Source: Marchantia polymorpha subsp. ruderalis (Eukaryota; Streptophyta; Marchantiopsida; Marchantiales; Marchantiaceae). From it: DNA of 64,000 nt. Numbering within the stretch: the first letter of the stretch is position 1; each line of letters starts with the position of its first letter. The position numbers and the translations under genes are program-made. The stretch is taken from assembly GCA_037833965.1 (NCBI GenBank), contig AP031352.1, forward strand, positions 30,568,501 to 30,632,500, read 5' to 3'. The notes beneath the pieces are model-generated. The model was not told the DNA's origin, searched no databases, and saw only the letters and a program-made list of their open reading frames with translations. This document shows positions 30,146 to 59,277 of the stretch, in pieces.

Positions 30146-30226
30146 TCCGACTACGTGAATCTTCGTGTCCTCGTGACGATCTCATCAATCCACTCTATTT
30201 AACGTACCCTTTTCTAACTACAAACA

Positions 30227-36503: not shown

Positions 36504-36539
36504 CGTAGTGCAGTGTAGTGTTAGGTAGGACTTAGAAGG

Positions 36540-36547
36540 TATAAAAT
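36540..36547 (+). promoter_or_regulatory. TATA box of type-A solo LTR 1
   Basis: TATAAAAT in 'gaaggtataaaatagttcc', about 37 bp after the ORF stop. The same sequence occurs in every type-A LTR. Confidence 0.7.
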
Positions 36548-39728: not shown

Positions 39729-42700
39729 ATGACCTTCGACCGGGCGGCGGAGAACGTCCCATTCTTGAATTCGCGATTCCAATCTCTTGTGCGCGCTGCG
39801 CGCATCCATCTGCTGGCTGCGGAACATTCTCGACGTCGTCGCACAGGAGATTTCTTGTTGATTGAGGGAGAAGTGAGTGCGCGTGATTTGGAATTGAGAG
39901 CGATTAGAGTTTGCCGAGAGAGAAAGAAACGCGGGCAGTGCGGAAGTAGAATGAGCGGGCGAGCGAACCCCAGGAACGCAATGACGAGACCGAGCAGATT
40001 GCGGATGGTGCCACTTCGCCTACCGCAGAACGGGCTGCGCGCTTTTGAGGAGCGCTTAATAGCAAGAAAGCTCGATTTCTTGCTATGGGGATGGAATTAC
40101 ATCTGTGCGAACATGGTGCGCGAGTGGCTAGAGCCACAGGGACCACCCTCGCGCGGATTGCGTCCGCATGTTGATCGGTGGACAGTCCAAGATTGGGCGC
40201 AGGCGTTGGGAAGATGTGCTGGCATGCCAGGACATCTCCTTTTCGACAGTGAGAGCATCAAGGTGACCAAGCAAGAAGAGGCGCAATTTGTGGAGCTGTT
40301 CAAGACCGGGAGGTCTACCAAGAATGGGTACAGGACCCGTGATTACAAGGATCGATTTCGCCGGACTTTGTCCGCGGCGCTGATGCAATTACTGCAGCCG
40401 CACCGCGCCTGCTACATCACATTGTGGCAGGTCTCTTTTGTGGAGTGCGTCGTCGAGGGAACTCCAATTCACTGGGCGAGCATCCTGCACAGGGTGATGC
40501 GACAGCACGCGTTTGAGGAGAAGGGGGGAACTCTAAACCATCTTTCTCCTTTCCTCATCAATTTTTATCGACAGCGGAATTGTTTGACAGCGGCGGAGCT
40601 TGAACATTTTCCGCCATTGTCCATCGACCATCCCGGGAAGTATGTGCGGGAGAACGAGGTCGATACTGATGCAGAGGAGTCACCGACTTCTACCCCATCA
40701 AGACGGAGGGACGAAGGGAAACACACCCCTGCAGCGCGAGTGCCGCGGAAGCGGCGATGGAGGGAAGAGTCTGAAGAGGAGCAGCATCAAGAACCCTCTG
40801 CTCCCATTCGACCGCGGCCGCTGTGCGAGCCATACAGCCGGCCGAAGCAGAAGGCACGCAGACTGGTGTTGCCAGCTGACAGTGCAGACACGGCGACGAT
40901 TGCGACGGAGATAGGAAGTGCGTCGCCAGAGAGGCGAGAGGAAGCGCGGACGACCGCAGGAGCAACGGGCCACGCTGCAACCTCGACGGGAGAGAGGCCA
41001 CCTACGGGCCAAGGGCCTCCGGAGTTACCACGTGCGATGCGGACAGATGTTCCGTTTGCGCACAGGCGAACCTCCGCGGACGGACGAGCCTCCGCGGACC
41101 GGCGAACACAAGTGGACGTGGATCTACGCTTACGCGTGGGAAGGAGCAGTCCGCCTGTGCACAGGCGCTCACCTGTGCACAGGTCGCCTGTGCACAGGAC
41201 ACCTCCACACGTGCCGCCTGTGCACAGGCAAGAATCACCCCCGTTCCAACGTAGGAAAGGGAAGGAGCCGGCGGAAGAACCGCCTACGAGACACCGGCCC
41301 TCGGGGCCAGACCCTCCGGCGCACCACGCGCCGCAATTCGCGCCTTCGGCGCCAGGGCCTTCGAGCAGAGGAGATACGAGCAGAGAGCGTGCGAAGGCCG
41401 CACCATCGGCGGGAAGTCCGCGGATAGGTGCGCCTTCGGCGGTAGGGCCTATGGGCCAAGGAACATCGGGCGTGCGGCCCCCGGCCATGTCGCCTTCGGC
41501 GATAGATGTCAGCGGCGCTACGCCTGTGGCGGACAAGGCGCCTGCGCACGGGCCGGGCACAGCCCCCACGGACCGACCAGGGGAGCAGCAACAGACGGAG
41601 GAGCGGAGTGACTGTCCGCGGGATGAAATCTCGACGCGCGATGCGCAATCCAACCCCGCGCAGCCACCCTCCGCTCGATCGCCTTCGGCGACGGACGACG
41701 GCGACAGAGAGGATGCGGTAGACCATCAACAAGCGAGAGACGGGGATGCCGCACGGGTACATTCGCCTTCCGCCTTAGACATTTTGGCGACGAGCAGCGA
41801 GGCTGCAGCCGTGCCTTCGCAGGCAGCACACGTCGACGACGTGCAGCCCCACTCGGGGCAGTCGCCGACGCAATCAATGGCGACTGAAATTCTCCACTCG
41901 GATGATGACGACGGAGGCTCCACGGAAGAAATGTCAGGAGCAGAAGACACCGAGGAGAAGGAGGAGGAAATTGTTGGAGCGCCGGCGGCGGCGCTCTCTG
42001 AGCAGGTGATTCCGTTGCTGCGGTACTTGGATCGCAAGGTCGATAAATACGCCGACCCACTCCAGCCGGGATCTTACATCGAGTTAGTGCGCAGGCGGAC
42101 TCGCACTAAAGTCCACACCAGCAAGCTATTAGCTAGAGTGGACCAGGAGTTGAAGGACTTGAAGGAGAAGCATGCGTGCTTGTGGGGTCAGTACAAGCTT
42201 AATCAGAAATTCTACAAGCACTCCGAGAAGATGAAGGATGAGAAACTGGGCGAGCTCACCAAGGAGCAGGTGAAGGTCAAGGAAGCACTCAACTCTGAGC
42301 AGGCCCAGAATCGGATTTTGTCAGAGGAGCTCGTGCGACAGACGCGGTTGTTGGAACAATGTCAGCTCGCACGGCAGGCGGATGAAGAGTTAATCCGCAG
42401 GTTACAGTCAGAGTGTGGCGAATTGAGAGCGCAACGTGCTGAAGCCGAATCGCAATTAGTGATGATTGAAGAGGATCGCAGGAAGGAGGCGGATCGCACG
42501 AAGGTGGAGACGGCGAGGCGAGTCGCCCACTGTCTCAAGGGCTACGCCCACTGGGAAGTGAAGGCGCAGGAGAAACTCACACTGCGTGAGTTTGAATTGC
42601 GCGCAGCCGGGTTGTTGTCAGGCGACAGTAGGAGTCGGCGGAAGGTAGCAAAGAAGCTCGAAGCCTTTCTGTCGAAGGCACAGGATACCATGTCCGCCCT

Positions 42701-42857
42701 CGAAGGGGAGGTGTCCGCGGCGTTGCAGCCGTTGGGACTGCGCAGTCGAGCGAAAGATTGGCAGGGTAGGGAGTTAGTGCGCGGCAGTCGGCCGCGCAGG
42801 AGACGTAGTACAGGTTCCGCGGAGTGTAGTGTAGCGTGGTTCCGTGCAGGCGTGTAG
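39729..42857 (+). CDS. Type-A LTR-encoded coiled-coil protein, copy 2 (intact, function unknown)
   Basis: 1042 residues from ATG, with the same architecture as the protein at 33351. Differences are scattered substitutions and in-frame indels: one P-V-H-R unit fewer, P-A-N-A missing in the D-K-A-P-A region, one extra Q in the E-Q-Q run. The conserved N-terminal domain and coiled coil are nearly unchanged. As the insertion came after the host LTR, this intact copy represents a recently active source. The start is chosen by conservation across copies; the internal M at 39952 is an alternative. Confidence 0.8.
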   Translation: MTFDRAAENVPFLNSRFQSLVRAARIHLLAAEHSRRRRTGDFLLIEGEVSARDLELRAIRVCRERKKRGQCGSRMSGRANPRNAMTRPSRLRMVPLRLPQNGLRAFEERLIARKLDFLLWGWNYICANMVREWLEPQGPPSRGLRPHVDRWTVQDWAQALGRCAGMPGHLLFDSESIKVTKQEEAQFVELFKTGRSTKNGYRTRDYKDRFRRTLSAALMQLLQPHRACYITLWQVSFVECVVEGTPIHWASILHRVMRQHAFEEKGGTLNHLSPFLINFYRQRNCLTAAELEHFPPLSIDHPGKYVRENEVDTDAEESPTSTPSRRRDEGKHTPAARVPRKRRWREESEEEQHQEPSAPIRPRPLCEPYSRPKQKARRLVLPADSADTATIATEIGSASPERREEARTTAGATGHAATSTGERPPTGQGPPELPRAMRTDVPFAHRRTSADGRASADRRTQVDVDLRLRVGRSSPPVHRRSPVHRSPVHRTPPHVPPVHRQESPPFQRRKGKEPAEEPPTRHRPSGPDPPAHHAPQFAPSAPGPSSRGDTSRERAKAAPSAGSPRIGAPSAVGPMGQGTSGVRPPAMSPSAIDVSGATPVADKAPAHGPGTAPTDRPGEQQQTEERSDCPRDEISTRDAQSNPAQPPSARSPSATDDGDREDAVDHQQARDGDAARVHSPSALDILATSSEAAAVPSQAAHVDDVQPHSGQSPTQSMATEILHSDDDDGGSTEEMSGAEDTEEKEEEIVGAPAAALSEQVIPLLRYLDRKVDKYADPLQPGSYIELVRRRTRTKVHTSKLLARVDQELKDLKEKHACLWGQYKLNQKFYKHSEKMKDEKLGELTKEQVKVKEALNSEQAQNRILSEELVRQTRLLEQCQLARQADEELIRRLQSECGELRAQRAEAESQLVMIEEDRRKEADRTKVETARRVAHCLKGYAHWEVKAQEKLTLREFELRAAGLLSGDSRSRRKVAKKLEAFLSKAQDTMSALEGEVSAALQPLGLRSRAKDWQGRELVRGSRPRRRRSTGSAECSVAWFRAGV

Positions 42858-42893
42858 CGTAGTGCAGTGTAGTGTTAGGTAGGACTAAGAGGG

Positions 42894-42901
42894 TATAAAA
42901 T
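42894..42901 (+). promoter_or_regulatory. TATA box of type-A solo LTR 2
   Basis: TATAAAAT about 37 bp after the ORF stop, as in the other type-A LTRs. Confidence 0.7.
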
Positions 42902-43863
42902 AGTTCCAGGCGTTTTGCCTGGGGTTCTTTCCCATCAGAAGTGCAGATCAGGAACCCATTTCCTTTGCGTGTTTGTGTCCTTGAGTTCTGTCACCACGCA
43001 CGAGGAGTTACAACTTAGCGTTCCGCATTTTGTAGCTGAAGGCCTTCGGCCGAATGTTCAGAGCTAGTACATTGGTTAGAGACTTGAGTAGTTCGGATCT
43101 GCACCTGCGGGTGACTGCCGATGCTCAGAGCCAGTGACTAGTTAGATACTTGAACAGTTTCGCCCCTACACCTTCGAGTGTTTCTTTCTGATTGTACTCC
43201 TTGGGATTTTTCCCCTGAATGCCAGAGTGAAGTTTTGCTACTTCGTGTAAGCCTTGGTTGTAAATTCAGGTTACGCTGCAGCAGGTGCCTTGAGGGTAAC
43301 CCCTGTAGTATTTCTGGGAATGACAAGTGCCTGAGAATTCAAACTCTTCAATAGACTGTTGTTGTGTTACTGGAATGTTTCACAGTGAGTCCTTCAGTGC
43401 GGACCTGTGTTCTCTGCGCGTTTTGTGAGTTGAGAGTGTTGTTCACCGCGTCTGAGTGACTTCGATCCGAAGTAGGTAGTCCAAACCGGGTTTCCTACAC
43501 TAGCAGCAAGCTAGTGGGAGTGTTGTAAAAGCCGGAGTTTGAAGTCACTGCCCGCAGCTTTGCCGAGTGTGCTCGCGAGAGACTTCCCCCCTGAAATCTT
43601 GAGTAGAGGTCCTAACGGATCTCTGGGTTGTGTTTCTGTAGTTTCAGGTGTGTGTGTGTGTGCGTTACGCTGCACTGTGCGACCTCCGAGTGCGCTCCGA
43701 GTGGACACTTGCAGTATTTCTGGGAGTGACAGTTGCCTGAGAATTCAAACTCCTCAATAGTCTGTTAAAACGTGACACTTTGTACCCTGTGTGTTCCTCT
43801 GTCCCTGTGGGTTCGACCTTTCTACCACTATATTGCAGTTTTAGCCTTTAGTGGGTTATTACA

Positions 43864-46670
43864 ACGGGCTGCGCGCTTTTGAGGAGCGCTTAATAGCAAG
43901 AAAGCTCGATTTCTTGCTATGGGGATGGAATTACATCTGCGCGAATATGGTGCGCGAGTGGCTAGAGCCACAGGGACCACCCTCGCGCGGATTGCGTCCG
44001 CATGTTGATCGGTGGACAGTCCAAGATTGGGCGCAGGCGTTGGGAAGATGTGCTGGCATGCCAGGGCATCTCCTTTTCGACAGCGAGAGCATCAAGGTGA
44101 CCAAGCAAGAAGAGGCGCAATTTGTGGAGCTGTTCAAGACCGGGAGGTCTACCAAGAATGGGTACAGGACCCGTGATTACAAGGATCGATTTCGCCGGAC
44201 TTTGTCCGCGGCGCTGATGCAATTACTGCAGCCGCACCGCGTTTGCTACATCACATTGTGGCAGGTCTCTTTTGTGGAGTGCGTCATCGAGGGAACTCCA
44301 ATTCACTGGGCGAGCATCCTGCACAGGGTGATGCGACAGCACGCGTTTGAGGAGAAGGGGGGAACTCTAAACCATCTTTCTCCTTTCCTCATCAATTTTT
44401 ATCGACAGCGGAATTGTTTGACAGCGGCGGAGCTTGAACATTTTCCGCCATTGTCCATCGACCATCCCGGGAAGTATGTGCGGGAGAACGAGGTCGATAC
44501 TGATGCAGAGGAGTCACCGACTTCTACCCCATCAAGACGGAGGGACGAAGGGAGACACACCCCTGCAGTGCGAGTGCCGCGGAAGCGGCGATGGAGGGAA
44601 GAGTCTGAAGAGGAGCAGCATCAAGAACCCTCTGCTCCCATTCGACCGCGGCCGCTGTGCGAGCCATACAGCCGGCCGAAGCAGAAGGCACGCAGACTGG
44701 TGTTGCCAGTTGACAGTGCAGACACGGCGACAATCGCGACGGAGATAGGAAGTGCGTCGCTAGAGAGGCGAGAGGAAGCGCGGACGACCGCAGGAGCAAC
44801 GGGCCACGCTGCAACCTCGTCGGGAGAGAGGCCGCCTACAAACCAAGGGCCTCCGGAGTTACCACGTGCGATGCGGACAGATGTTCCGTTTGCGCACAGG
44901 CGAACCTCCGCGGACGGACGAGCCTCCGCGGACCGGCGAACACAAGTGGACGTGGATCTACGCTTACGCGTGGGAAGGAGCAGTCCGCCTGTGCACAGGA
45001 CACCTCCACACGTGCCGCCTGTGCACAGGCAAGAATCACCCCCGTTCCAACGTAGGAAGGGGAAGGAGCCGGCGGAAGAACCGCCTACGAGACACCGGCC
45101 CTCGGGGCCAGACCCTCCGGCGCACCACGCGCCGCAATTCGCGCCTTCGGCGCCAGGGCCTTCGAGCCGAGGAGATACGAGCAGAGAGCGTGCGGAGGCC
45201 GCACCATCGGCGGGAAGTCCGCCGATAGATGCGCCTTCGGCGGTAGGGCCTATAGGCCAAGGAACATCGGGCGTGCGGCCCTCGGCCATGTCGCCTTCGG
45301 CGATAGATGTCCGCGGCACTACGCCTGCGGCGGACAAGGCGCCGGCAAATGCGCCTGCGCACGGGCCGGGCACAGCCCCCACGGACCGATCAAGGGAGCT
45401 GCAACAGACGGAGGAGCGGAGTGACTGTCCGCGGGATGAAATCTCGATGCGCGATGCGCAATCAAACCCCGCGCAGCCACCCTCCGCTCGATCGCCTTCG
45501 GCGACGGACGACGGCGATCGAGAGGATGCGGTAGACCATCAACAAGCGAGAGACGGGGATGCCGCACGGGTACATTCGCCTTCCGCCTTAGACATTTTGG
45601 CGACGAGCAGCGAGGCTGCAGCCGTGCCTTCGCAGGCAGCACACGTCGACGACGTGCAGCCCCACTCGGGGCAGTCGCCGACGCAATCAATGGCGACTGA
45701 AATTCTCCACTCGGATGATGACGACGGAGGCTCCACGGAAGAAATGTCAGGAGCAGAAGACACCGAGGAGGAGGAGGAGGAAATTGTTGGAGCGCCGGCG
45801 GCGGCGCTCTCTGAGCAGGTGATTCCGTTGCTGCGGTACTTGGATCGCAAGGTCGATAAATACGCCGACCCACTCCAGCCGGGATCTTACATCGAGTTAG
45901 TGCGCAGGCGGACTCGCACTAAAGTCCACACCAGCAAGCTATTAGCTAGAGTGGACCAGGAGTTGAGGGACTTGAAGGAGAAGCATGCGTGCTTGTGGGG
46001 TCAGTACAAGCTTAATCAGAAGTTCTACAAGCACTCCGAGAAGATGAAGGATGAGAAACTGGGCGAGCTCACCAAGGAGCAGGTGAAGGTCAAGGAAGCA
46101 CTCAACTCTGAGCAGGCCCAGAATCGGATTTTGTCAGAGGAGCTCGTGCGACAGACGCGGTTGTTGGAACAATGTCAGCTTGCACGGCAGGCGGATGAAG
46201 AGTTAATCCGCAGGTTGCAGTCAGAGTGTGGCGAATTGAGAGCGCAACGTGCTGAAGCCGAATCGCAATTAGTGATAATTGAAGAGGATCGCAGGAAGGA
46301 GGCGGATCGCACGAAGGTGGAGACGGCGAGGCGAGTCGCCCACTGTCTCAAGGGCTACGCCCACTGGGAAGTGAAGGCGCAGGAGAAACTCACACTGCGA
46401 GAGTTTGAATTGCGCGCAGCCGGGTTGTTGTCAGGCGACAGTAGGAGTCGGCGGAAGGTAGCAAAGAAGCTCGAAGCCTTTCTGTCGAAGGCACAGGATA
46501 CCATGTCCGCCCTCGAAGGGGAGGTGTCCGCGGCGTTGCAGTGGTTGGGACTGCGCAGTCGAGCGGAAGATTGGCAGGGTAGGGAGTTAGTGCGCGGCAG
46601 TCGGCCGCGCAGGAGGCGTAGTACAGGTTCCGCGGAGTGTAGTGTAGCGTGGTTCCGCGCAGGCGTGTAG
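43864..46670 (+). pseudogene. Type-A LTR ORF, copy in gypsy 5' LTR, main part (disconnected from its start)
   Basis: It resumes at N-G-L-R-A-F after the solo LTR and stays open for about 930 codons to the usual end F-R-A-G-V. It has two P-V-H-R copies. Apart from being separated from its 5' part at 38181-38485 it shows no stop or shift. Excising the solo LTR in thought would give one frame from M-S-G-R-A-N. It pairs with the 3' LTR copy (54720) in shared variants. Confidence 0.85.
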
Positions 46671-47677
46671 CGTAGTGCAGTGTAGTGTTAGGTAGGACTT
46701 AGAAGGTATAAAATAGTTCCAGGCGTTTTGCCTGGGGTTCTTTCCCATCCGGAGTGCAGATCAGGAACCCATTTCCTTTGCGTGTTTGTGTCCTTGAGTT
46801 CTGTCACCACGCATGAGGAGTTACAACTTAGCGTTCCGCATTTTGTAGCTGAAGGTCTTCGGCCGAATGTTCAGAGCTAGTACATTGGTTAGAGACTTGA
46901 GTAGTTCGGAACTGCACCTGCGGGTGACTGCCGATGCTAAGAGCCAGTGACTAGTTAGATACTTGAACAGTTTCGCCCCTACACCTTCGAGTGTTTCTTT
47001 CTGATTGTACTCCTTGGGATTTTTCCCCTGAATGCCAAAGTGAAGTTTTGCTACTTCGTGTAAGCCTTGGTTGTAAATTCAGGTTACGCTGCAGCAGGTG
47101 CCTTGAGGGTAACCCCTGTAGTATTTCTGGGAATGACAAGTGCCTGAGAATTCAAACTCTTCAATAGACTGTTGTTGTGTTACTGGAATGTTTCTCAGTG
47201 AGTCCTTCAGTGCGGACCTGTGTTCTCTGCGCGTTTTGTGAGTTGAGAGTGTTGTTCACCGCGTCTGAGTGACTTCGATCCGAAGTAGGCAGTCCAAACC
47301 GGGTTTCCTACACTAGCAGCAAGCTAGTGGAAGTGTTGTAAAAGCCGGAGTTGGAAGTCACTACCCGTAGCTTCGCAGAGTGTACTCTTGAGAGACTTTC
47401 CCCCTGAAATCTTGAAGTAGAGGTCCTAACGGATCTCTGGGTTGTGTTTCTGTAGTTTCAGGTGTGTGTGTGTGTGTGTTACGCTGCACTGTGCGACCTC
47501 CGAGTGCGCTCCGAGTGGACACTTGCAGTATTTCTGGGAGTGACAGTCGCCTGAGAATTCAAACTCCTCAATAGTCTGTTAAAACGTGACACTTTGTACC
47601 CTGTGTGTTCCTCTGTCCCTGTGGGTTCGACCTTTCTACCACTATATTGCAGTTTTAGCCTTTAGTGGGTTATTACA
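43869..47677 (+). mobile_element. 5' LTR of gypsy element, piece 3 (ORF, R, U5)
   Basis: It runs from the second duplication to the LTR end TTATTACA at 47677, with the TATA box at 46707-46714 and about 0.96 kb of R-U5 including a GT microsatellite. It is followed after 22 bp by the primer binding site. Confidence 0.93.
46707..46714 (+). promoter_or_regulatory. TATA box of gypsy 5' LTR (drives genomic RNA)
   Basis: TATAAAAT in 'gaaggtataaaatag'. As this is the 5' LTR, it is the likely promoter of the full-length RNA that encodes gag-pol and, at its 3' end, the U3 ORF of the 3' LTR. Confidence 0.7.
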
Positions 47678-47699
47678 TAAGAAGCCGACAACTTCTTTT

Positions 47700-47718
47700 T
47701 GGCGCCGCTGCCGGGGAC
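47700..47718 (+). promoter_or_regulatory. Primer binding site (tRNA-Asp type)
   Basis: tggcgccgctgccggggac matches the complement of the plant tRNA-Asp 3' end, with one T-to-C difference in the GTTG position. It lies 22 bp after the LTR end, not directly adjacent. tRNA-Asp-type priming is known for Tat/Athila-like plant elements. Confidence 0.8.
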
Positions 47719-48035
47719 AGTTGCGTCAACACCGGGGTTTTTTTTCGAGCAGCCATGCTCGGTGAATGTCGACTGGGGCTAGCGGGAGCAACCTAAGTGC
47801 TAGAGCTGTCCGCAAGTTCTGACGAGATTCAGAGAAGGCCGTGGAAGAGACACGGCGTCAAAACAAGAAAACACCAAAAAGAGTACCTAAGCCTAGTTCG
47901 GCCGACATCCTTGGGGAACCTACCCCCGGCGACTCGGAACCAAACTTGGTGCTTACAGTTCTGCTAGATATTCCTTGCACGGACCCGCCTCGTGAAGTAG
48001 AACCGACCGCCCGAGAACCGTCGACAGACACACCG

Positions 48036-50597
48036 ATGGCGGACGGACAAGCCAATGTGCGGCTACCTCAGCCGATTACTAAACATTCCTACCCGAAGTA
48101 CAAAGGGAGTGGGGATGACGACGATGCAGATTCATACATCAAGTTGTTCGAATCGGTGTCTATTGCCAATCGCGAGATCGTAGACGACGAGCGACTACGG
48201 ATCTTTCCAAGCCTTCTGCGGAAGAAAGCGAGGAGTTGGTACAATCACGAGAGCATCGATCCGACTGGGTTGACAACATGGGCCCAGCTGAAGGAGAAGT
48301 TCCTTCGCCGCTTTCGCGAGCTCGGCTACGACAGCCGGGTTTTGACAAAGTTACGTAATTTGCAACGAGAGAAGAAGGAGAGTCTGCGTGACTACACTGA
48401 GAGATTTCTGGACCTCCTCGACAGAATACCGAAAACAGGACCAGGGTCCCCTTTCTCGGTACAACAAGCTGTGGATTGGTACGTGACCGGTTTAACTCGG
48501 GAGATGGAGACTTTTTGCCGACGCAGCAAGTGCGACACTATTGAGGATGTGATTGCATCGGCAGAAGCCTTCGAAACTTCCACTCTCAACCGAAGAGGGA
48601 GAGAGAGACGGGAGTCGAAGGAGCGAAAACCGAAGGGAGGGCGAAGACGACGTAGAGGTACAACTCCGTCATCGGAGGAATCGTCTTCGGACGAGAACCG
48701 TTCCTCATCCGAAGAAGAGGAAACCTCATCGTCGGAGGAGGAGAAGAAGAGGAAGAAGCATGGGTCAGCGAAGAAAAAGGGCATCCGACGAGTGACTACG
48801 GACAGAGCGCCGGGAGATATAGCTTCGAAGATGGAGACCCTTGTGAAGGACTTCGCCGATCTCAAGGTTCAAGTGGTAGGCGGGCATGATCGCCGAAAAT
48901 CACCCGGAAGAGTGCGAGCGAACTTATGGTGTACTACGTGCGGGGCGGTGGGACATGCAAACACCGAGTGCCTTACCACCCGTCCGTCATATCCAGTCAA
49001 CGCAGTAGAGTGGGCACAACCGTACTATGGAGAGCACCCTCAGTACTATGGAGAGGCTAGCGAAGAGACAGCCTACGCCGTCCAGTCGGTTCCTACCCCT
49101 CCTGCAGTTTCAGCAATGCAAGTCCCACGATATATTCCGGTGGATCGGGCCACTACAGTACCCGTGAGGCGGAGAGCACCTCCAGGGACGTTTGACCCAC
49201 CGCCACCGCGAGCTTGTTATAATTGCGGGGAAGTTGGGCACTTCTCACCGCAGTGTCCCCATCCAAAAAGGCGAAACGATTATGCTCCGACATGTAGTAA
49301 TTGCAAGAAGATCGGGCATACTGCGCCAGAGTGTGATCAGCCGCCAGTCCCTCGGCCAGCGGTACGATTTGTGAACACTCTTGCCAAGGAGGACGTCCAA
49401 GTTAACCAGGTCGAAGTAGGTTCAGACGGGGATGACGAAGACGAAGAATGGCCGGCTGAAGAGGTTATGTGCGCACGGGTCGAAACTCGTAGTTCCAAGA
49501 AATCGAAGGAGCAAGAGCGTGACACTCGCAAGCACGAACGGAGAACCGACGACCGGACGGGAAAAGGGAAGGAGAAGACATCCAGCAAGTCTGACTTGCG
49601 ACCTGCTCGGAAGTCTTCGGCTACGCGAGAGGCACCAGCAGTGCGCCCCCAGACAGCAGTCGAGGACGAGCCAGTGCGCCTACTGAAACGGGACTATGCT
49701 CCGGATATCCGCAACGAGGTAACCAACCTGTTGAAGGAAGCGGTCCGCACTCAAAAGGACCCACCACGGCCAGACTTGACATCCTCCCTTGGGGCGAAGT
49801 TGGCAGCCACCGTGGAACCTCGCAGAGCGTCGCCGACCCCGGCGACCCAACGCGTCCACTATGACTTGGTCGAAGATCTCGGGAGTCGAAAAGTGAACAT
49901 CACGTTCAAGCAGCTCTTGGAGGACAATAAGACGTATCGGAGAATGTTGATGCTTTCTTTACGGCATCCGCGGAAGCCGCGCGCATCCACATCCTCTCAA
50001 GTATATCAAGTGGAGAGCGAAGACCAAGGGCCACCAGAGATCGATGTGGAAATAGCAGGCTGTTGTGTACGCAGGGTGCCAATCGACTCTGGATCAGGAG
50101 TCAACATAATGACGGAGGATACAGCGAGAGCCTTGGGGTTCAGTCAATACGAACCCTCGAAGCGTGTGTTGAGATTAGCGGATCAGACGCGGAGAATGCC
50201 TGCAGGTATGCTGCGCAATGTCAAGACAATCATCGGGGGTGCGGACTTCCGGTTGACGTATATCATCCTTCAACCGATGATGAAGCAGGGCTATGACGTT
50301 CTGCTCGGGCGACCATGGCTATATGGCGCACAAGTCAGATGTGATTGGCGAAGGCATCGCCTTAAGTTTCCCCATCCTTCGGAACCGGCCAAAACCATTA
50401 CGGTGCCCTGGAATAGGGTCAGGCACGAAGGAGAGACCCCATCGACAAGTGCAGGTTACACATCGGGCGAGGACAGTGAGTCGACCGCGCGATCGGATTC
50501 CAGTGGTACCGAATCCGATTATTTCGTGGGATTCGTTGCCTGCTGTTCGGTGGGAGAAGAAGAAGAGCCGGAAGCTATTCAGCCGGAAGACGAATAG
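48036..50597 (+). CDS. gag-pro: Gag-protease polyprotein of Ty3/gypsy element
   Basis: 853 residues from the first in-frame ATG (M-A-D-G-Q). The frame is open back to 47823 without ATG and looks coding-like, so translation may start further up. Parts: retrotransposon gag domain about 20-170 (A-R-S-W-Y, W-A-Q-L-K-E-K-F, R-D-Y-T-E-R-F); basic then Ser/Glu-rich stretch about 185-250; three CCHC zinc knuckles at 299-312, 394-407 and 420-433 (all C-x2-C-x4-H-x4-C); charged linker; aspartic protease with active-site D-S-G at D684 (50085) and the later L-L-G-R-P-W motif. Gag forms the particle and binds RNA; protease matures the polyprotein. It ends D-E-UAG, with the pol frame continuing in phase. 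Confidence 0.92.
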   Translation: MADGQANVRLPQPITKHSYPKYKGSGDDDDADSYIKLFESVSIANREIVDDERLRIFPSLLRKKARSWYNHESIDPTGLTTWAQLKEKFLRRFRELGYDSRVLTKLRNLQREKKESLRDYTERFLDLLDRIPKTGPGSPFSVQQAVDWYVTGLTREMETFCRRSKCDTIEDVIASAEAFETSTLNRRGRERRESKERKPKGGRRRRRGTTPSSEESSSDENRSSSEEEETSSSEEEKKRKKHGSAKKKGIRRVTTDRAPGDIASKMETLVKDFADLKVQVVGGHDRRKSPGRVRANLWCTTCGAVGHANTECLTTRPSYPVNAVEWAQPYYGEHPQYYGEASEETAYAVQSVPTPPAVSAMQVPRYIPVDRATTVPVRRRAPPGTFDPPPPRACYNCGEVGHFSPQCPHPKRRNDYAPTCSNCKKIGHTAPECDQPPVPRPAVRFVNTLAKEDVQVNQVEVGSDGDDEDEEWPAEEVMCARVETRSSKKSKEQERDTRKHERRTDDRTGKGKEKTSSKSDLRPARKSSATREAPAVRPQTAVEDEPVRLLKRDYAPDIRNEVTNLLKEAVRTQKDPPRPDLTSSLGAKLAATVEPRRASPTPATQRVHYDLVEDLGSRKVNITFKQLLEDNKTYRRMLMLSLRHPRKPRASTSSQVYQVESEDQGPPEIDVEIAGCCVRRVPIDSGSGVNIMTEDTARALGFSQYEPSKRVLRLADQTRRMPAGMLRNVKTIIGGADFRLTYIILQPMMKQGYDVLLGRPWLYGAQVRCDWRRHRLKFPHPSEPAKTITVPWNRVRHEGETPSTSAGYTSGEDSESTARSDSSGTESDYFVGFVACCSVGEEEEPEAIQPEDE

Positions 50598-50603: not shown

Positions 50604-53438
50604 ACTGTGGGACTGGGAAGGAGTGAGACGAGTCACACCGAGGGCATTGTCGACCCTAGTGACTGTCACGAAGTACAACTCAGTCCCGGCAAGCGCTTGA
50701 AGGTATCAAGCGCAGTGAGAGGAGACGAGCGAAGGAAAGTACAGGAATTCCTTAGCCATTATGTCGACGTCTTCGCCTGGAAGATCGAAGACATGAAGGG
50801 GATACCCGCAAGGTATGGGGAACACCGTATCGATTTACTGGACGACTCAGTACCCATACGACAGCGCCAGTATCGCCTCAACCCAAAATACTCCTTGCTA
50901 GTTAAAGAGGAGATAGATAAGTACTTGAGCGCTGGTATTATTTACCCTGTGCTCAGCAGTGAGTGGGTGTCGCCGATTGTTATCGTACCCAAGAAGTTGA
51001 CGGGTAAGATACGAGTGTGTCAGGATTTCCGGAAGTTGAATGCAGCAACACGCAAGGATCATCACCCGTTACCATTCACGGATGCCATTCTAGACCATGT
51101 CGCAGGACATGAATGTTATAGCTTCCTGGATGGGTTCTCAGGTTACAATCAGGTGTCTATCCGTGAACAGGACAAGGATAAAACTACGTTCACAACCGAC
51201 TGGGGAACTTACGCATACCACAAGATGCCCTTCGGTCTGTGCAACGCGCCTGCCACCTTTCAACGGATGATGACCAATATCTTTCAGGAACAACTGAGGA
51301 AGTTCCTGGAAATATTCATAGATGACTTCTGTGTCTTTGGGAAGCGGTCTGAACACCTAAGTCACTTGAAGCAGACCTTCGATAAATGTAGAGAGAGCAG
51401 TTTATCACTGCATCCCGAGAAGTGCTTTTTCTTCATGACTAGTGGGATCTTGTTGGGTCATCGGGTCTCGGCAGAAGGCATTGCGGTGGACGTCGAGAAG
51501 GTCAAGGTTATACTCGAGCTTGAGCCACCCACGAATCTAAGAGAGCTGCGAGCGTTCCTGGGTCATGTGGGCTACTACCGAAGATTCATACACCTGTATG
51601 CAATACTGGCGGCGGACCTGACCAAGTTGTTGAAGAAAGACGAGCCTTATGCTTGGGGTGCGAACCAGCAGTTAGCATTTGAAACTCTTAAAGCGAAACT
51701 CACGACTGCTCCCGTACTAAGGAGTCCAGACTGGAATCGACCATTCCATGTTTACGTTGACACATCGGCATTCGCCATCGGTGTAGTACTGAGTCAAAAG
51801 GATGACAACAAAAAGGACTACCCGATCTACTTCGCGAGCCGACAGCTGTCTCTAGCAGAGCGAAAGTACACCACGACGGAGAGAGAAGTGTTGGGGATGG
51901 TGTACTCCTGTAAAAAGTTCCGTCACTACCTAATCTGCTACGAGTTTGTGTTCCATGTGGACCACTACGCATTGCAACACCTAGTCAAGAAAGCCGACCT
52001 ATCCGGTCGGATCGCCAGGTGGGTGTTGTTACTACAAGAGTTCACCTACACAGTCCAGACCAGGAAAGGGGTGCACCACGAGAATGCGGATTACTTGTCC
52101 CGATTATGGACACAGCCGACAGAGGAGGAATTGATGGACGATTTTCCAGATGAAGAGTTATTTCAGTTGTCTGCAGGACATGAGTCCCGCTATGCCGACC
52201 TGTATCGATATCTGCTAACTCTCCAGTGTCCCGAAGGCATGGATTTGGAACAGCGAACTGTCTTTATTCATAAGGCAGGTCCGTACCAACTCCAGCAGGG
52301 GGTTTTGTTCAAGAAGATGGCAGATGAGCGCTTATGCAGATGCCTGGAGGAAACAGAGGTACCAAGAATAGTGAGTGCGATGCATACAGAGGAGGCGGGT
52401 GGACACTATGCCACCAGGAACACGGTCACAAAGATCCTAAATGCGGGGTATTGGTGGCCGACCATGTTTAAGGATGTTCTCGATTACATCCGCAAGTGCG
52501 ACAGTTGCCAGAGGACGGGGAGACCGACGCCTACAACACGCTGGCCCCTGACTCCCATCATGCCTCTAGCACCTTTCGAAAAGTGGGGTATTGACTTTGT
52601 AGGGCCGATACAACCAGTGACTAGAAGTACCCGAAGGCGCTACATTCTGGTAGCAACGGACTACGCCACCAAAATGGTAGAGGCCAGGGCCACCAGAAGG
52701 GATGATGCTGCCACAGTGGCAGCATTCTTGTTTGAGTCGATCATCACACGCTACGGATGTCCCTTAGAGCTAGTCAGCGACCGGGGCACGCATTTTCTGA
52801 ATCAGATCATCGAAGATCTGACACGGTATTTCCACATCAAGCACCGGAAGACTACTCCATACAATCCTAAGGCAAATGGACTGACGGAGAAGTCCAATGG
52901 TCTGCTGTGTAAAATACTACTCAAGGTCACGGTGAATCACGCTCACGACTGGGATACGAAGCTAGCAGCCGCTCTATGGGCGTACCGCACAGCTGAGAAG
53001 ATCACGACCAAGCAGACACCATACTTTCTGGTGTATGGGCAACACCCGATCCTCCCGATTGAATTTGAAGTACCCACCCAACGAACGTTGGATTTGCAGA
53101 GGATGGGCGCAGAGGAGAGTCAGCTCTACAGGTTACAGGAGGTCACGCTGCTGGATGAGAGGAGACGAGACGCCGAAGATCGCACCAGGAAAATCCAGCT
53201 CCGCCAAAAGGAGAGATACGATAAAAAGATCAAACCGGTGCTCCTGCAGGCGGGTGATTTGGCATTGCTCTACGACAGCCGGCATGCCAGATTCCCAGGC
53301 AAACTGCACCTAAGGTGGATGGGACCTTACAGGGTTGTCGAAGTTTTCCCGAATGGATCCATCCAACTTGCGGACCTGGCCGGCGATTTGTTAGGCACCC
53401 GAGTAAACGGGTGGCGGTTGAAGAAATACCACATGTGA
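50598..53438 (+). CDS. pol: Pol: reverse transcriptase, RNase H, integrase (readthrough part)
   Basis: 946 residues in phase with gag, directly after the UAG, with no ATG before residue 65 or so (M-K-G-I-P-A). Reverse transcriptase: V-C-Q-D-F-R-K-L-N, the F-L-D-G-F-S-G-Y-N motif and the active site F-I-D-D-F (DD at 51321-51326). The F in place of Y is typical of the Athila/Tat group. RNase H starts at V-D-T-S (D at 51759) and includes T-T-T-E-R-E. Integrase: an HHCC finger (about 52380-52512) and D-D-35-E with D at 52593, D at 52779 and E at 52887, followed by a G-P-Y-R-V-V module near the end. No chromodomain is seen. All core residues are intact, so it could be active. Confidence 0.94.
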   Translation, partial: QLTVGLGRSETSHTEGIVDPSDCHEVQLSPGKRLKVSSAVRGDERRKVQEFLSHYVDVFAWKIEDMKGIPARYGEHRIDLLDDSVPIRQRQYRLNPKYSLLVKEEIDKYLSAGIIYPVLSSEWVSPIVIVPKKLTGKIRVCQDFRKLNAATRKDHHPLPFTDAILDHVAGHECYSFLDGFSGYNQVSIREQDKDKTTFTTDWGTYAYHKMPFGLCNAPATFQRMMTNIFQEQLRKFLEIFIDDFCVFGKRSEHLSHLKQTFDKCRESSLSLHPEKCFFFMTSGILLGHRVSAEGIAVDVEKVKVILELEPPTNLRELRAFLGHVGYYRRFIHLYAILAADLTKLLKKDEPYAWGANQQLAFETLKAKLTTAPVLRSPDWNRPFHVYVDTSAFAIGVVLSQKDDNKKDYPIYFASRQLSLAERKYTTTEREVLGMVYSCKKFRHYLICYEFVFHVDHYALQHLVKKADLSGRIARWVLLLQEFTYTVQTRKGVHHENADYLSRLWTQPTEEELMDDFPDEELFQLSAGHESRYADLYRYLLTLQCPEGMDLEQRTVFIHKAGPYQLQQGVLFKKMADERLCRCLEETEVPRIVSAMHTEEAGGHYATRNTVTKILNAGYWWPTMFKDVLDYIRKCDSCQRTGRPTPTTRWPLTPIMPLAPFEKWGIDFVGPIQPVTRSTRRRYILVATDYATKMVEARATRRDDAATVAAFLFESIITRYGCPLELVSDRGTHFLNQIIEDLTRYFHIKHRKTTPYNPKANGLTEKSNGLLCKILLKVTVNHAHDWDTKLAAALWAYRTAEKITTKQTPYFLVYGQHPILPIEFEVPTQRTLDLQRMGAEESQLYRLQEVTLLDERRRDAEDRTRKIQLRQKERYDKKIKPVLLQAGDLALLYDSRHARFPGKLHLRWMGPYRVVEVFPNGSIQLADLAGDLLGTRVNGWRLKKYHM

Positions 53439-53462
53439 GTGTTCGCGTGGGCGCTCACAATT

Positions 53463-53475
53463 GAGGAGGGGGGCA
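53463..53475 (+). promoter_or_regulatory. Polypurine tract
   Basis: gaggaggggggca directly before the 3' LTR start at 53476. It is the usual plus-strand DNA primer. The pol stop lies 25 bp upstream, so no env-like gene exists between pol and the PPT. Confidence 0.85.
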
Positions 53476-54719
53476 TGTGGTACCCCACTTTTGGCAATTT
53501 TGAGGAAATTAAAACATTTTTGGAAAACTGTACCCTGGCAGCATTGTAAATAGCCTTCGGTACATCAAAACAGAGTGAATCCGGAAGATCGCGGGGATTC
53601 TCGAGGGATCTTGTAGAATCTGGGATTTGGGGTGCCGCAGTAAGGTCAGGCACCACCCTCCCTGCGAGCTCTGCAGTTAGGATCTCTACGGCGCAAGGCG
53701 CAAAACCCGCCTTCGGAGGTTGCGTCCGCGGCTGTAGGGAAACCCTCCCTAATTAGGTCAACCCTCGGGCGCCTTGACCAAGTTAGGATCCCGTTGGAAA
53801 GAGCTCGACGCACTGATTCCAACGAGCCCAAGAACGCTTGGAACGGACGAGGACTTAGGGAGTTATCGCTACTGGAAGAAACGGAGGCGGTCGCCTACGG
53901 CGGAAGGAGTTCGCCACCGGCGCGAATTCCGCCTACGCGGAAGGGGGAATCAAGTTTTGTCCTATGCGCGGACGAAGGCGTTCGCCTGTGCACAGGCGAA
54001 GTAGGGTTAGGGAAGGCGCGAAGTCCGCCTACGCACAGGCGTTCGCCTGTGCACAGGCGCTTCGGCGTCGGCGGAAAATCCGCCTTGGGCCCTAGGAATG
54101 CGCCTTGTGAGGTAGAAAGTGTACGGCGTCTTCCGCGCCAGCGCGGCGCCGCGTACGTCGGAAGAGCCGCCAGAGTAATCCAATCGGTACGGACCATGCG
54201 GACGGCACGGGTGGGTGCGCTCTTGGACGGACGGAGTTGCGGCGGCGGAAGCGCCGACGGAGAGACAAGGAACGGACAGACTGGACGGAGACGGCTGACC
54301 ACGGTCGACGCCTTCCGCGCCAGCGCAGCGCCGCGGACGGAATTCGCCTGCGCACAGGCGAACGCCTGTGCACAGGAGGATGAGGTTCCGCACCGGCGGA
54401 GAATCCGCCGAGGCTCCTGCCTGCGCACAGGCAGGAGTTGAACTTTTGTCCGACATGCGGACACACGCGTCAAGGCAGAGGGGGATTGGCCGAGGGGCGG
54501 TACGAACAAGTGTACCGCGCAAGGCGGAAAACTCGCCTTCGGCGCTACGCCCCCATTTCCGCAGGGTGACACGCTCGCGGAGTTCAAATCCGCCAATTCG
54601 AGCGTGAGAGTTTAATCGACGACGGCGGAGCGTGAAGCCGCGCGTGAGAGCGAAGACCGTTCCAGCGTACAGCCGGCGCGGCCATCAAGTGAGACGTTCT
54701 TCACGACCAAGAGCCGACC

Positions 54720-57716
54720 ATGACCTTCGACCGGGCGGCGGAGAACGTCCCATTCTTGAATTCGCGATTCCAATCTCTTGTGCGCGCTGCGCGCATCCAT
54801 CTGCTGGCTGCGGAACACTCTCGACGTCGTCGCACAGGAGATTTCTTGTTGATTGAGGGAGAAGTGAGTGCGCGTGATTTGGAATTGAGGGCGATTAGAG
54901 TTTGCCGAGAGAGAAAGAAGCGCGGGCAGTGCGGAAGTAGAATGAGCGGGCGAGCGAACCCCAGGAACGCAATGACGAGACCGAGCAGATTGCGGATGGT
55001 GCCACTTCGCCTACCGCAGAACGGGCTGCGCGCTTTTGAGGAGCGCTTAATAGCAAGAAAGCTCGATTTCTTGCTATGGGGATGGAATTACATCTGCGCG
55101 AATATGGTGCGCGAGTGGCTAGAGCCACAGGGACCACCCTCGCGCGGATTGCGTCCGCATGTTGATCGGTGGACAGTCCAAGATTGGGCGCAGGCGTTGG
55201 GAAGATGTGCTGGCATGCCAGGGCATCTCCTTTTCGACAGCGAGAGCATCAAGGTGACCAAGCAAGAAGAGGCGCAATTTGTGGAGCTGTTCAAGACCGG
55301 GAGGTCTACCAAGAATGGGTACAGGACCCGTGATTACAAGGATCGATTTCGCCGGACTTTGTCCGCGGCGCTGATGCAATTACTGCAGCCGCACCGCGCC
55401 TGCTACATCACATTGTGGCAGGTCTCTTTTGTGGAGTGCGTCATCGAGGGAACTCCAATTCACTGGGCGAGCATCCTGCACAGGGTGATGCGACAGCACG
55501 CGTTTGAGGAGAAGGGGGGAACTCTAAACCATCTTTCTCCTTTCCTCATCAATTTTTATCGACAGCGGAATTGTTTTACAGCGGCGGAGCTTGAACATTT
55601 TCCGCCATTGTCCATCGACCATCCCGGGAAGTATGTGCGGGAGAACGAGGTCGATACTGATGCAGAGGAGTCACCGACTTCTACCCCATCAAGACGGAGG
55701 GACGAAGGGAGACACACCCCTGCAGCGCGAGTGCCGCGGAAGCGGCGATGGAGGGAAGAGTCTGAAGAGGAGCAGCATCAAGAACCCTCTGCTCCCATTC
55801 GACCGCGGCCGCTGTGCGAGCCATACAGCCGGCCGAAGCAAAAGGCACGCAGACTGGTGTTGCCAGTTGACAGTGCAGACACGGCGACAATCGCGACGGA
55901 GATAGGAAGTGCGTCGCCAGAGAGGCGAGAGGAAGCGCGGACGACCGCAGGAGCAACGGGCCACGCTGCAACCTCGTCGGGAGAGAGGCCGCCTACGGGC
56001 CAAGGGCCTCCGGAGTTACCACGTGCGATGCGGACAGATGTTCCGTTTGCGCACAGGCGAACCTCCGCGGACGGACGAGCCTCCGCGGACCGGCGAACAC
56101 AAGTGGACGTGGATCTACGCTTACGCGTGGGAAGGAGCAGTCCGCCTGTGCACACGCGCTCGCCTGTGCACAGGACACCTCCACACGTGCCGCCTGTGCA
56201 CAGGCAAGAATCACCCCCGTTCCAACGTAGGAAGGGGAAGGAGCCGGCGGAAGAACCGCCTACGAGACACCGGCCCTCGGGGCCAGACCCTCCGGCGCAC
56301 CACGCGCCGCAATTCGCGCCTTCGGCGCCAGGGCCTTCGAGCCGAGGAGATACGAGCAGAGAGCGTGCGGAGGCCGCACCATCGGCGGGAAGTCCGCCGA
56401 TAGATGCGCCTTCGACGGTAGGGCCTATAGGCCAAGGAACATCGGGCGTGCGGCCCTCGGCCATGTCGCCTTTGGCGATAGATGTCCGCGGCACTACGCC
56501 TGCGGCGGACAAGGCGCCGGCAAATGCGCCTGCGCACGGGCCAGGCACAGCCCCCACGGACCGATCAAGGGAGCTGCAACAGACGGAGGAGCGGAGTGAC
56601 TGTCCGCGGGATGAAATCTCGATGCGCGATGCGCAATCAAACCCCGCGCAGCCACCCTCCGCTCGATCGCCTTCGGCGACGGACGACGGCGACAGAGAGG
56701 ATGCGGTAGACCATCAACAAGCGAGAGACGGGGATGCCGCACGGGTACATTCGCCTTCCGCCTTAGACATTTTGGCGACGAGCAGCGAGGCTGCAGCCGT
56801 GCCTTCGCAGGCAGCACACGTCGACGACGTGCAGCCCCACTCGGGGCAGTCGCCGACGCAATCAATGGCGACTGAAATTCTCCACTCGGATGATGACGAC
56901 GGAGGCTCCACGGAAGAAATGTCAGGAGCAGAAGACACCGAGGAGGAGGAGGAGGAAATTGTTGGAGCGCCGGCGGCGGCGCTCTCTGAGCAGGTGATTC
57001 CGTTGCTGCGGTACTTGGATCGCAAGGTCGATAAATACGCCGACCCACTCCAGCCGGGATCTTACATCGAGTTAGTGCGCAGGCGGACTCGCACTAAAGT
57101 CCACACCAGCAAGCTATTAGCTAGAGTGGACCAGGAGTTGAGGGACTTGAAGGAGAAGCATGCGTGCTTGTGGGGTCAGTACAAGCTTAATCAGAAGTTC
57201 TACAAGCACTCCGAGAAGATGAAGGATGAGAAACTGGGCGAGCTCACCAAGGAGCAGGTGAAGGTCAAGGAAGCACTCAACTCTGAGCAGGCCCAGAATC
57301 GGATTTTGTCAGAGGAGCTCGTGCGACAGACGCGGTTGTTGGAACAATGTCAGCTTGCACGGCAGGCGGATGAAGAGTTAATCCGCAGGTTGCAGTCAGA
57401 GTGTGGCGAATTGAGAGCGCAACGTGCTGAAGCCGAATCGCAATTAGTGATAATTGAAGAGGATCGCAGGAAGGAGGCGGATCGCACGAAGGTGGAGACG
57501 GCGAGGCGAGTCGCCCACTGTCTCAAGGGCTACGCCCACTGGGAAGTGAAGGCGCAGGAGAAACTCACACTGCGAGAGTTTGAATTGCGCGCAGCCGGGT
57601 TGTTGTCAGGCGACAGTAGGAGTCGGCGGAAGGTAGCAAAGAAGCTCGAAGCCTTTCTGTCGAAGGCACAGGATACCATGTCCGCGTGTGGCGTAGTGCA
57701 GTGTAGTGTTAGGTAG
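54720..57716 (+). CDS. Type-A LTR-encoded protein in the 3' LTR (C-terminus altered by a deletion)
   Basis: 998 residues. It matches the other type-A proteins until A-Q-D-T-M-S-A near 57685, where a deletion joins it to LTR sequence normally just after the stop. The last 45 or so residues of the usual protein are replaced by a short tail, C-G-V-V-Q-C-S-V-R. The N-terminal domain, middle and coiled coil are whole; the conserved L-G-L-R-S-R-A-E end is lost. This is the copy that genomic RNA would carry 3' of pol. Its position downstream of the PPT and before R mimics a U3-encoded accessory gene. Function unknown; the effect of the lost tail is also unknown. Confidence 0.78.
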   Translation: MTFDRAAENVPFLNSRFQSLVRAARIHLLAAEHSRRRRTGDFLLIEGEVSARDLELRAIRVCRERKKRGQCGSRMSGRANPRNAMTRPSRLRMVPLRLPQNGLRAFEERLIARKLDFLLWGWNYICANMVREWLEPQGPPSRGLRPHVDRWTVQDWAQALGRCAGMPGHLLFDSESIKVTKQEEAQFVELFKTGRSTKNGYRTRDYKDRFRRTLSAALMQLLQPHRACYITLWQVSFVECVIEGTPIHWASILHRVMRQHAFEEKGGTLNHLSPFLINFYRQRNCFTAAELEHFPPLSIDHPGKYVRENEVDTDAEESPTSTPSRRRDEGRHTPAARVPRKRRWREESEEEQHQEPSAPIRPRPLCEPYSRPKQKARRLVLPVDSADTATIATEIGSASPERREEARTTAGATGHAATSSGERPPTGQGPPELPRAMRTDVPFAHRRTSADGRASADRRTQVDVDLRLRVGRSSPPVHTRSPVHRTPPHVPPVHRQESPPFQRRKGKEPAEEPPTRHRPSGPDPPAHHAPQFAPSAPGPSSRGDTSRERAEAAPSAGSPPIDAPSTVGPIGQGTSGVRPSAMSPLAIDVRGTTPAADKAPANAPAHGPGTAPTDRSRELQQTEERSDCPRDEISMRDAQSNPAQPPSARSPSATDDGDREDAVDHQQARDGDAARVHSPSALDILATSSEAAAVPSQAAHVDDVQPHSGQSPTQSMATEILHSDDDDGGSTEEMSGAEDTEEEEEEIVGAPAAALSEQVIPLLRYLDRKVDKYADPLQPGSYIELVRRRTRTKVHTSKLLARVDQELRDLKEKHACLWGQYKLNQKFYKHSEKMKDEKLGELTKEQVKVKEALNSEQAQNRILSEELVRQTRLLEQCQLARQADEELIRRLQSECGELRAQRAEAESQLVIIEEDRRKEADRTKVETARRVAHCLKGYAHWEVKAQEKLTLREFELRAAGLLSGDSRSRRKVAKKLEAFLSKAQDTMSACGVVQCSVR

Positions 57717-57727
57717 GACTTAGAAGG

Positions 57728-57735
57728 TATAAAAT
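57728..57735 (+). promoter_or_regulatory. TATA box of gypsy 3' LTR
   Basis: TATAAAAT, same context as in the other type-A LTRs. Here it follows the truncated ORF by only 11 bp because of the deletion. Confidence 0.65.
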
Positions 57736-59277
57736 AGTTCCAGGCGTTTTGCCTGGGGTTCTTTCCCATCCGGAGTGCAGATCAGGAACCCATTTCCTTT
57801 GCGTGTTTGTGTCCTTGAGTTCTGTCACCACGCATGAGGAGTTACAACTTAGCGTTCCGCATTTTGTAGCTGAAGGTCTTCGGCCGAATGTTCAGAGCTA
57901 GTACATTGGTTAGAGACTTGAGTAGTTCGGAACTGCACCTGCGGGTGACTGCCGATGCTCAGAGCCAGTGACTAGTTAGATACTTGAACAGTTTCGCCCC
58001 TACACCTTCGAGTGTTTCTTTCTGATTGTACTCCTTGGGATTTTTCCCCTGAATGCCAAAGTGAAGTTTTGCTACTTCGTGTAAGCCTTGGTTGTAAATT
58101 CAGGTTACGCTGCAGCAGGTGCCTTGAGGGTAACCCCTGTAGTATTTCTGGGAATGACAAGTGCCTGAGAATTCAAACTCTTCAATAGACTGTTGTTGTG
58201 TTACTGGAATGTTTCTCAGTGAGTCCTTCAGTGCGGACCTGTGTTCTCTGCGCGTTTTGTGAGTTGAGAGTGTTGTTCACCGCGTCTGAGTGACTTCGAT
58301 CCGAAGTAGGCAGTCCAAACCGGGTTTCCTACACTAGCAGCAAGCTAGTGGAAGTGTTGTAAAAGCCGGAGTTGGAAGTCACTACCCGCAGCTTCGCAGA
58401 GTGTACTCTTGAGAGACTTTCCCCCTGAAATCTTGAAGTAGAGGTCCTAACGGATCTCTGGGTTGTGTTTCTGTAGTTTCAGGTGTGTGTGTGTGTGTGT
58501 TACGCTGCACTGTGCGACCTCCGAGTGCGCTCCGAGTGGACACTTGCAGTATTTCTGGGAGTGACAGTCGCCTGAGAATTCAAACTCCTCAATAGTCTGT
58601 TAAAACGTGACACTTTGTACCCTGTGTGTTCCTCTGTCCCTGTGGGTTCGACCTTTCTACCACTATATTGCAGTTTTAGCCTTTAGTGGGTTATTACAGC
58701 GCCGGCGTAATTCGATCCGACTGGATGTGCGCCTCCAGCAAGGCGCCGACGGATAATGAACGCACCAGCGGCGACACGCCTCCGGAGAAGGGCGGGTTAG
58801 GAAAAGACAACAGGGTCGACGTATACCCTGCAGCGGACTCGAGTCCGGAAGGTGGCGGCGGCGGGAGAATTCAACGTTTAAGCATGCGAATGCGCGCAAT
58901 GCGGAGACGTGAATTCGCGCATGCAAAGGGCGAACCGTTAAGCCGTATAGCCGGCTGCGTACGTTGCAACCAGTAAGAACGTTGGACGTTCTTGAAATCG
59001 GAGAAGAAAAGACTGCACTCTAGTCTCATTCTCTCATTCTTGGCTTTGCGATTTCCAGTTCCAAGATTACGCGCAAGGGCGGAGCGACCTGCAGTGAGAG
59101 TAGAGAGTGCGGAGACGAGTTGCGCAAGGATCTTGGCGGACCTTGAAAGAATTGGGAGTAGCGATCTTGAACGAGCGCAGAGAGAGTGAGCAGTCAGTGC
59201 TTGAGTGGCCGACGCGTAGTGGCGATTGTGAGAGAGCGAGCGAAAGGGAGAACGTTTGTGTGTGTGCAGGCAACGCA

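Follow-up and report, generated by a model that had tools for sequence, protein, structure and literature searches.

A long open reading frame inside the LTRs of a Ty3/gypsy element

The sequence analyzed here (the window) is a stretch of 64,000 nucleotides from Marchantia polymorpha subsp. ruderalis (GenBank assembly GCA_037833965.1, contig AP031352.1, positions 30,568,501 to 30,632,500 of the forward strand). Comparison of the window with itself resolved a nest of long terminal repeat (LTR) retrotransposons, in which a Ty3/gypsy element of family A (the A element) occupies positions 31523 to 58698. LTRs of this family contain a long open reading frame (the LTR frame), located downstream of pol and the polypurine tract (PPT) and upstream of a TATA box. 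The LTR borders, the frame, its position, the selection on it, and its recurrence in diverged families were all observed directly; the arrangement is genuine, extends across the clade, and is under selection.

The A element is inserted in a plus-strand LTR of family B, which it splits at 31522/58699. A 5-bp target duplication, GCGCC, flanks the element on both sides, and the uninterrupted insertion site, with a single GCGCC, was found in a minus-strand B copy of the same window. Together with the duplications ACAGG and ACGGG around a pair of solo LTRs that lie within the 5′ LTR, these features bear out the LTR borders proposed in an earlier note on this DNA. The coordinates given there for the 3′ LTR (53476 to 58698), its 998-codon frame (54720 to 57716), the TATA box (57728), and the end of the PPT (53475) also all hold. 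The 5′ LTR spans 31523 to 47677 in three pieces, followed by the internal region at 47678 to 53475 (Table 1). The two LTRs with TG..CA ends and the target duplication identify the element as an LTR retrotransposon, and the domain order gag, protease, reverse transcriptase (RT), RNase H, and integrase identifies it as Ty3/gypsy.

A chance origin of the frame was rejected, as the solo LTR at 32105 to 37513 contains 1,059 stop-free codons, whereas 500 LTRs simulated under an order-2 Markov model averaged 242 and reached at most 547. A deletion of ~150 bp near its 3′ end has shortened the 3′ LTR frame relative to the solo LTR frames (1,050 and 1,042 codons); inspected by eye for a possible lost intron, the deletion showed a 2-bp microhomology and no GT..AG ends. 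Because the frame of the 5′ LTR is broken by the two solo LTRs and that of the 3′ LTR has lost its C terminus, the A element has no whole LTR gene in either LTR; both nested solo LTRs have whole genes. Of the four A and three B LTRs in which the earlier note saw the same arrangement, the nested solo LTRs are whole and two B frames are long, but the 5′ A frame is interrupted and the third B-type frame is much shorter (19817 to 21238, 473 codons). Antisense frames on the minus strand overlap the LTR frame at 34409 to 35371, 40787 to 41653, and 55778 to 56557 (320, 288, and 259 codons, respectively); their lengths vary between copies, and they are probably a by-product of codon bias.

Table 1. 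Features of the A element and LTR frames in the window
Feature	Position	Strand	Remarks
Target duplication GCGCC, left of A element	31518..31522	.	
A element 5′ LTR, piece 1	31523..32104	+	self-comparison
Solo A LTR within 5′ LTR	32105..37513	+	duplication ACAGG
LTR frame of first solo LTR, 1050 codons	33351..36503	+	conserved ATG at 33603 (966 codons)
A element 5′ LTR, piece 2	37514..38485	+	self-comparison
Second solo A LTR within 5′ LTR	38486..43863	+	duplication ACGGG; sits inside 5′ LTR frame
LTR frame of second solo LTR, 1042 codons	39729..42857	+	
A element 5′ LTR, piece 3	43864..47677	+	self-comparison
Primer binding site TGGCGCCGCTGCCGGGGAC	47700..47718	+	identical motif in family B
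gag-protease frame	47841..50597	+	Pfam: Retrotrans_gag, two zinc knuckles, weak aspartyl protease
pol frame	50607..53438	+	Pfam: RT, RNase H, integrase
Polypurine tract and trailing CA	53463..53475	+	same in family B
A element 3′ LTR, TGTGGT..TTACA	53476..58698	+	
LTR frame of 3′ LTR, 998 codons	54720..57716	+	conserved ATG at 54972; C terminus missing, deletion near 57684
TATA box TATAAAATAG	57728..57737	+	after LTR frame
Target duplication GCGCC, right of A element	58699..58703	.	
LTR frame of B LTR, 913 codons	59107..61848	+	conserved ATG at 59278 (856 codons); TATA box at 61882
LTR frame of second B LTR, 949 codons from upstream TTG	25392..28241	-	

LTR borders and the frame in copies across the genome

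The genome searched comprised 241 Mb in nine contigs, from which 20 further A copies were selected by us out of 40 scored among 2,108 first-look candidates. The LTR started with TGTGGT in 23 of 23 LTRs (the 20 genome copies and three window LTRs) and ended with TTACA in all 16 A copies whose 3′ end was captured, so that the ends are the same in many copies, against the differently placed borders that the earlier note had named as a refutation. Of the 20 fetched copies, eight proved to be solo LTRs flanked by perfect 5-bp duplications, and the same ends were given by ten solo LTRs with matching 5-bp duplications. Misplaced borders were ruled out by the target duplications, the empty site, and the identical ends in many copies.

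The LTR frame measured 1,035 to 1,051 codons in 20 of the 23 A LTRs, the exceptions being the window 3′ LTR (998 codons, deletion), L016 (disrupted by a nested LTR), and L023 (870 codons). Nine of the ten solo LTRs with duplications contained the full frame. Among the best-scoring candidates, all 44 listed genome matches to the LTR protein covered at least 1,049 of 1,050 residues, 43 of them without a stop.

Some copies stand in tandem arrays of LTR-internal units. One on contig C6 (28269109 to 28359357) contains nine LTR frames at an exact spacing of 11,156 bp, and arrays on C7 (8459484 to 8505165) and C4 (20818876 to 20853474) contain five and four LTR frames, respectively, at a spacing of ~11.2 kb. 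In copies L014 and L015, a PPT lies to the left and a leader with the primer binding site (PBS) to the right; these are LTRs common to neighboring array units.

Purifying selection on the LTR frame

The pooled ratio of nonsynonymous to synonymous differences per site (pN/pS) of 20 A frames (W53476, L016, and L023 excluded) was 0.27 or 0.34, depending on the weight given to transitions (codon bootstrap for 0.34, 0.255 to 0.445). Diversity at codon positions 1, 2, and 3 was 0.0087, 0.0096, and 0.027, respectively, and diversity of the LTR (L016 excluded) was 0.027 before the frame and 0.018 after it. Seven of eight distinct gap intervals in the A frame were multiples of three, versus 5 of 26 in the LTR flanks; the eighth is the window 3′ LTR's own deletion. 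Eight B frames, including that of the window, gave pN/pS values of 0.29 to 0.35 (seven of eight fetched copies retained; L065 excluded). With values well below 1 in both families, the ratio near 1 that the earlier note had named as part of a refutation was not seen, and the LTR frame is a protein-coding gene under purifying selection. In pol of eight A copies (eight of nine kept; L056 excluded), pN/pS was only 0.08 to 0.11, so that constraint on the LTR protein is weaker than on pol. Variants common to several A frames had a pN/pS of 0.31, compared to 0.54 for single-copy variants, which fits selection on replicating lineages followed by decay of single copies.

Very low diversity among A copies (0.0009 to 0.0026) was found at LTR positions 1801 to 2100 (window 33905 to 34204), and codons 200 to 300 of the A frame contained two synonymous variants, versus 3 to 16 in most 50-codon bins. 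This segment may hold an extra DNA or RNA signal inside the gene, or its low diversity may be due to chance.

Family B and more diverged families

Genome copy L029 of family B contains, in order, an LTR end, a PBS motif of the A type, gag, pol, a PPT of the A type, and an LTR start, and B LTRs contain the LTR frame, following the same plan as A. Families A and B are 90% identical in pol, 64% in gag-protease, and 50% in the LTR protein; their synonymous sites are saturated or nearly so. DNA identity between A and B is 73 to 81% for the TATA box behind the frame and the region that follows it, and the window self-comparison gave no A-B DNA match for most of the LTR portion preceding the frame. 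Among 50 listed genome matches to the B frame, 15 had no stop and 35 had one to three. Stops were located in five of these 35; all five had a TGA at query codon 16, upstream of the conserved ATG, and one had a further internal stop. Seven of eight fetched B copies were open from the conserved ATG.

A more diverged solo LTR, L050, is flanked by GTACA on both sides and contains a frame, whose N-terminal protein part is 52 to 58% identical, and a TATA box; its first base is changed (CG for TG). Copies L051 and L053 have an LTR start upstream of the frame; in L052 the frame is followed by a TATA box, and no LTR start was identified. A TATA box thus follows the frame in A, B, L050, and L052. As the earlier note had claimed, the frame lies within the LTR, downstream of pol and the PPT and ahead of the TATA box; this was seen in A and B, the two families whose internal region was observed, and the diverged solo LTR has its frame within the LTR before the TATA box. 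A query from a third family gave at least 146 matches on all nine contigs (best 92 of 11,719 first-look candidates). Judged by these comparisons, the LTR position of the frame is old within the clade, and many members are decayed.

The window contains further repeats. Approximately 22 copies of a 217-bp unit, 65 to 100% alike, occupy 11423 to 16491, and a further weak copy (60 to 73%) is located at 23837, beside a B/C-type LTR. Two B-type LTR starts (28608 to 29923 and 30144 to 31459) form an inverted pair, 98% complementary and 220 nucleotides apart.

The predicted LTR protein and its origin

Several LTR proteins share one starting methionine (MTRPSRLRM, MSKVPQLR, and MAKSIPLR), which in the 3′ LTR of the A element lies 84 codons into the open frame. 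An ATG was present at this position in 18 of 20 diverged copies, a sample that favors a kept ATG, as the copies were chosen for matches reaching query residues 1 to 6. The B frame upstream of the ATG is not kept, as five copies have the stop at codon 16 and the two window B copies differ there by 2 bp in length. Translation probably starts at the conserved ATG, and the protein is likely 966 residues long in A and 856 in B.

The N-terminal part of the predicted protein is conserved and its middle is of low complexity; the protein also has the basic motifs PRKRRW and RPKQKAR, the conserved block LLRYLDRK, and C-terminal heptad windows at corresponding places in A and B. No PDB sequence match was found. 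The last protein search returned 69 matches, comprising 62 predicted hypothetical proteins of M. polymorpha and 7 proteins without an organism name; matches in the earlier protein searches likewise belonged to M. polymorpha or to unnamed entries. A search with PF20167 (Transposase_32) gave no genome match but was uninformative, as none was found in 14 controls either.

A captured host gene, or a functionless frame riding in the LTR, would agree with a protein without known function whose middle is mostly of low complexity. This explanation is nevertheless very improbable: purifying selection acts in two families and indels are in frame, ~50% identity is retained between families whose synonymous sites are near saturation, and no host homologue outside the LTR-protein family was seen in the protein searches.

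The internal region bears on a second possible origin. The PBS of the A element is presumably of the Athila/Tat type. The protease match (E = 0.00023) is below the curated Pfam cutoff. In pol, a single RNase H region was found (residues 350 to 479) and no second RNase H domain, although a degraded domain could escape Pfam. No chromodomain followed the integrase, with none among Pfam matches up to an E value of 10, and the element does not classify as a chromovirus. The pol stop is separated from the 3′ LTR by 37 bp, not by the 25 bp reported earlier. The LTR frame could derive from the 3′ extra ORF of Tat/Athila elements, absorbed into the LTR through the emergence of a new PPT ahead of this ORF, an origin that is compatible with an accessory gene in U3 (the unique 3′ region of the LTR). 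The identical order of gag, pol, and extra ORF and the short distance between pol and the LTR agree with this, as do Tat clades without an additional RNase H reported from Marchantia in the available portion of one survey (PMC10508981). The LTR protein showed no homology to an extra-ORF family, however, as all 69 matches were from M. polymorpha or unnamed organisms; no consistent Pfam family emerged from 27 members; and an intermediate with the ORF in the internal region, sought in A and B only, was not found. This origin is accordingly regarded as possible but doubtful.

The 5′ and 3′ LTR pieces of the A element are 98.8 to 99.7% identical, so the element is young; two solo LTRs are already inside its 5′ LTR. 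An in-frame stop soon after the ATG that matches the start of family B gag (window 47740 to 47860, by eye) suggests that its gag is probably damaged.

A putative accessory gene in U3

The gene lies downstream of the PPT and inside the LTR in families A and B, as a U3 gene would. In established LTR replication, plus-strand synthesis primed at the PPT places U3 in both LTRs. Since the PPT precedes the gene, plus-strand synthesis would include the gene in U3, and reverse transcription would copy it into both LTRs, giving a full element two copies and a solo LTR one whole copy. We consider it likely that the LTR frame is an accessory gene of a Marchantia Ty3/gypsy clade, bounded by the PPT on one side and, on the other, by the TATA box from which the genomic RNA most likely starts. 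Placement in U3 is suggested by the TATA box behind the frame; the genomic RNA would start ~30 bp after this box and carry the gene only at its 3′ end.

Alternatively, the genomic RNA might start further upstream in the 5′ LTR and the TATA box serve another RNA, in which case the gene would lie in R or U5 and precede gag as an ORF0-like first cistron. Approximately 1.2 kb of LTR upstream of the frame could accommodate such a start, and the first ~120 bp are alike in seven LTRs of several families. Diversity is also low at LTR positions 1 to 100 and 1101 to 1400, upstream of the conserved ATG at LTR position 1499; this would fit a promoter or leader, but equally low values occur within the frame. 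An upstream start is unlikely, however, as it is the TATA box and the region behind it that are conserved between A and B, most of the stretch before the frame having no A-B match, and L050 and L052 also have a TATA box behind the frame.

Under the preferred placement in U3, a promoter near the 5′ end of U3 might drive the gene, or splicing of the genomic RNA might yield it as a 3′ cistron, and its mRNA would end at the LTR's own poly(A) site. Candidate splice acceptors were rejected: one at the conserved ATG is convincing in B but not common to 20 diverged copies, and a poly-T tract with CAG, present in B and C where the LTR begins, is absent from A, D, E, and F. The product might be a nuclear coiled-coil accessory protein of benefit to the element, for instance by countering silencing or by acting in the handling of RNA or particles; a nuclear role and coiled-coil assembly are a guess from composition and the weakest part of this proposal.

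Several points weigh against an accessory gene in U3. Copies were drawn from top-scoring lists, which biases the sample toward intact frames, and three pairs among the 20 A frames (in tandem arrays) are identical or one codon apart, leaving ~17 distinct frames. Many listed third-family matches carry stops. Profile searches identified no consistent Pfam family, including in 27 members checked, and no consistent NCBIfam family, and AlphaFold2 models were poor (mean predicted local distance difference test scores of 48.8 and 44.0), with no usable fold. No outside homologue was found in protein searches in which candidates needed shared 5-residue words and, in the earlier ones, only the best-scoring were considered. 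A splice acceptor common to the copies was not found.

Implications and comparison with known systems

Plant LTRs are usually regarded as regulatory DNA, and solo LTRs as mere leftovers. In the elements described here, a gene under selection takes up over half of the A LTR, would be copied into both LTRs during replication, and predates the divergence of families whose synonymous sites are nearly saturated. The 62 predicted M. polymorpha hypothetical proteins among the 69 protein matches belong to this LTR-gene family, which is a warning for annotation. More tentatively, the LTR might be a self-contained gene unit, such that a solo LTR stays a complete, expressible gene acting in trans, with the U3 gene ancestral to the liverwort clade. 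If so, a large dispersed pool of LTR genes could control or derepress elements long after gag-pol loss.

In the available portions of reviews and surveys, extra ORFs of plant elements are placed in the internal region (PMC7264820, PMC6317226, PMC11963269, PMC10508981, and PMC3485330). Available text of two Marchantia papers (PMC9985172 and PMC5784723) and a meeting report (PMC10714607) covers transposable element amounts and methylation and does not describe an LTR gene. Searches of an open-licence library, judged by the papers listed, showed no precedent for a plant LTR with a protein gene, a scope that does not prove priority. According to the portions available, Tat, Athila, Retand, and Grande elements likewise have a conserved protein additional to gag-pol in most copies, encoded in the internal region, whereas the Marchantia ORF is inside the LTR (PMC7264820, PMC6317226, and PMC11963269). 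Retrosat2, RIRE3, and RIRE8 are likewise described, in the text available, as having LTRs of >3 kb together with an additional ORF, its role unknown, that evolves faster than pol; unlike the Marchantia LTR frame, this ORF0 is upstream of gag-pol in the internal region (PMC3485330).

The closest likeness in position is to animal retroviruses. The sag gene of mouse mammary tumor virus and the U3 part of nef likewise lie after pol and the PPT, in U3, and are present in both LTRs. The putative Marchantia U3 gene differs in its length (~900 to 1,000 codons) and in its plant element with LTRs of 5.2 to 5.4 kb, and no sequence relation to these genes is expected. It would be a plant parallel to the U3 genes of animal retroviruses, making element-encoded control testable in a model liverwort.
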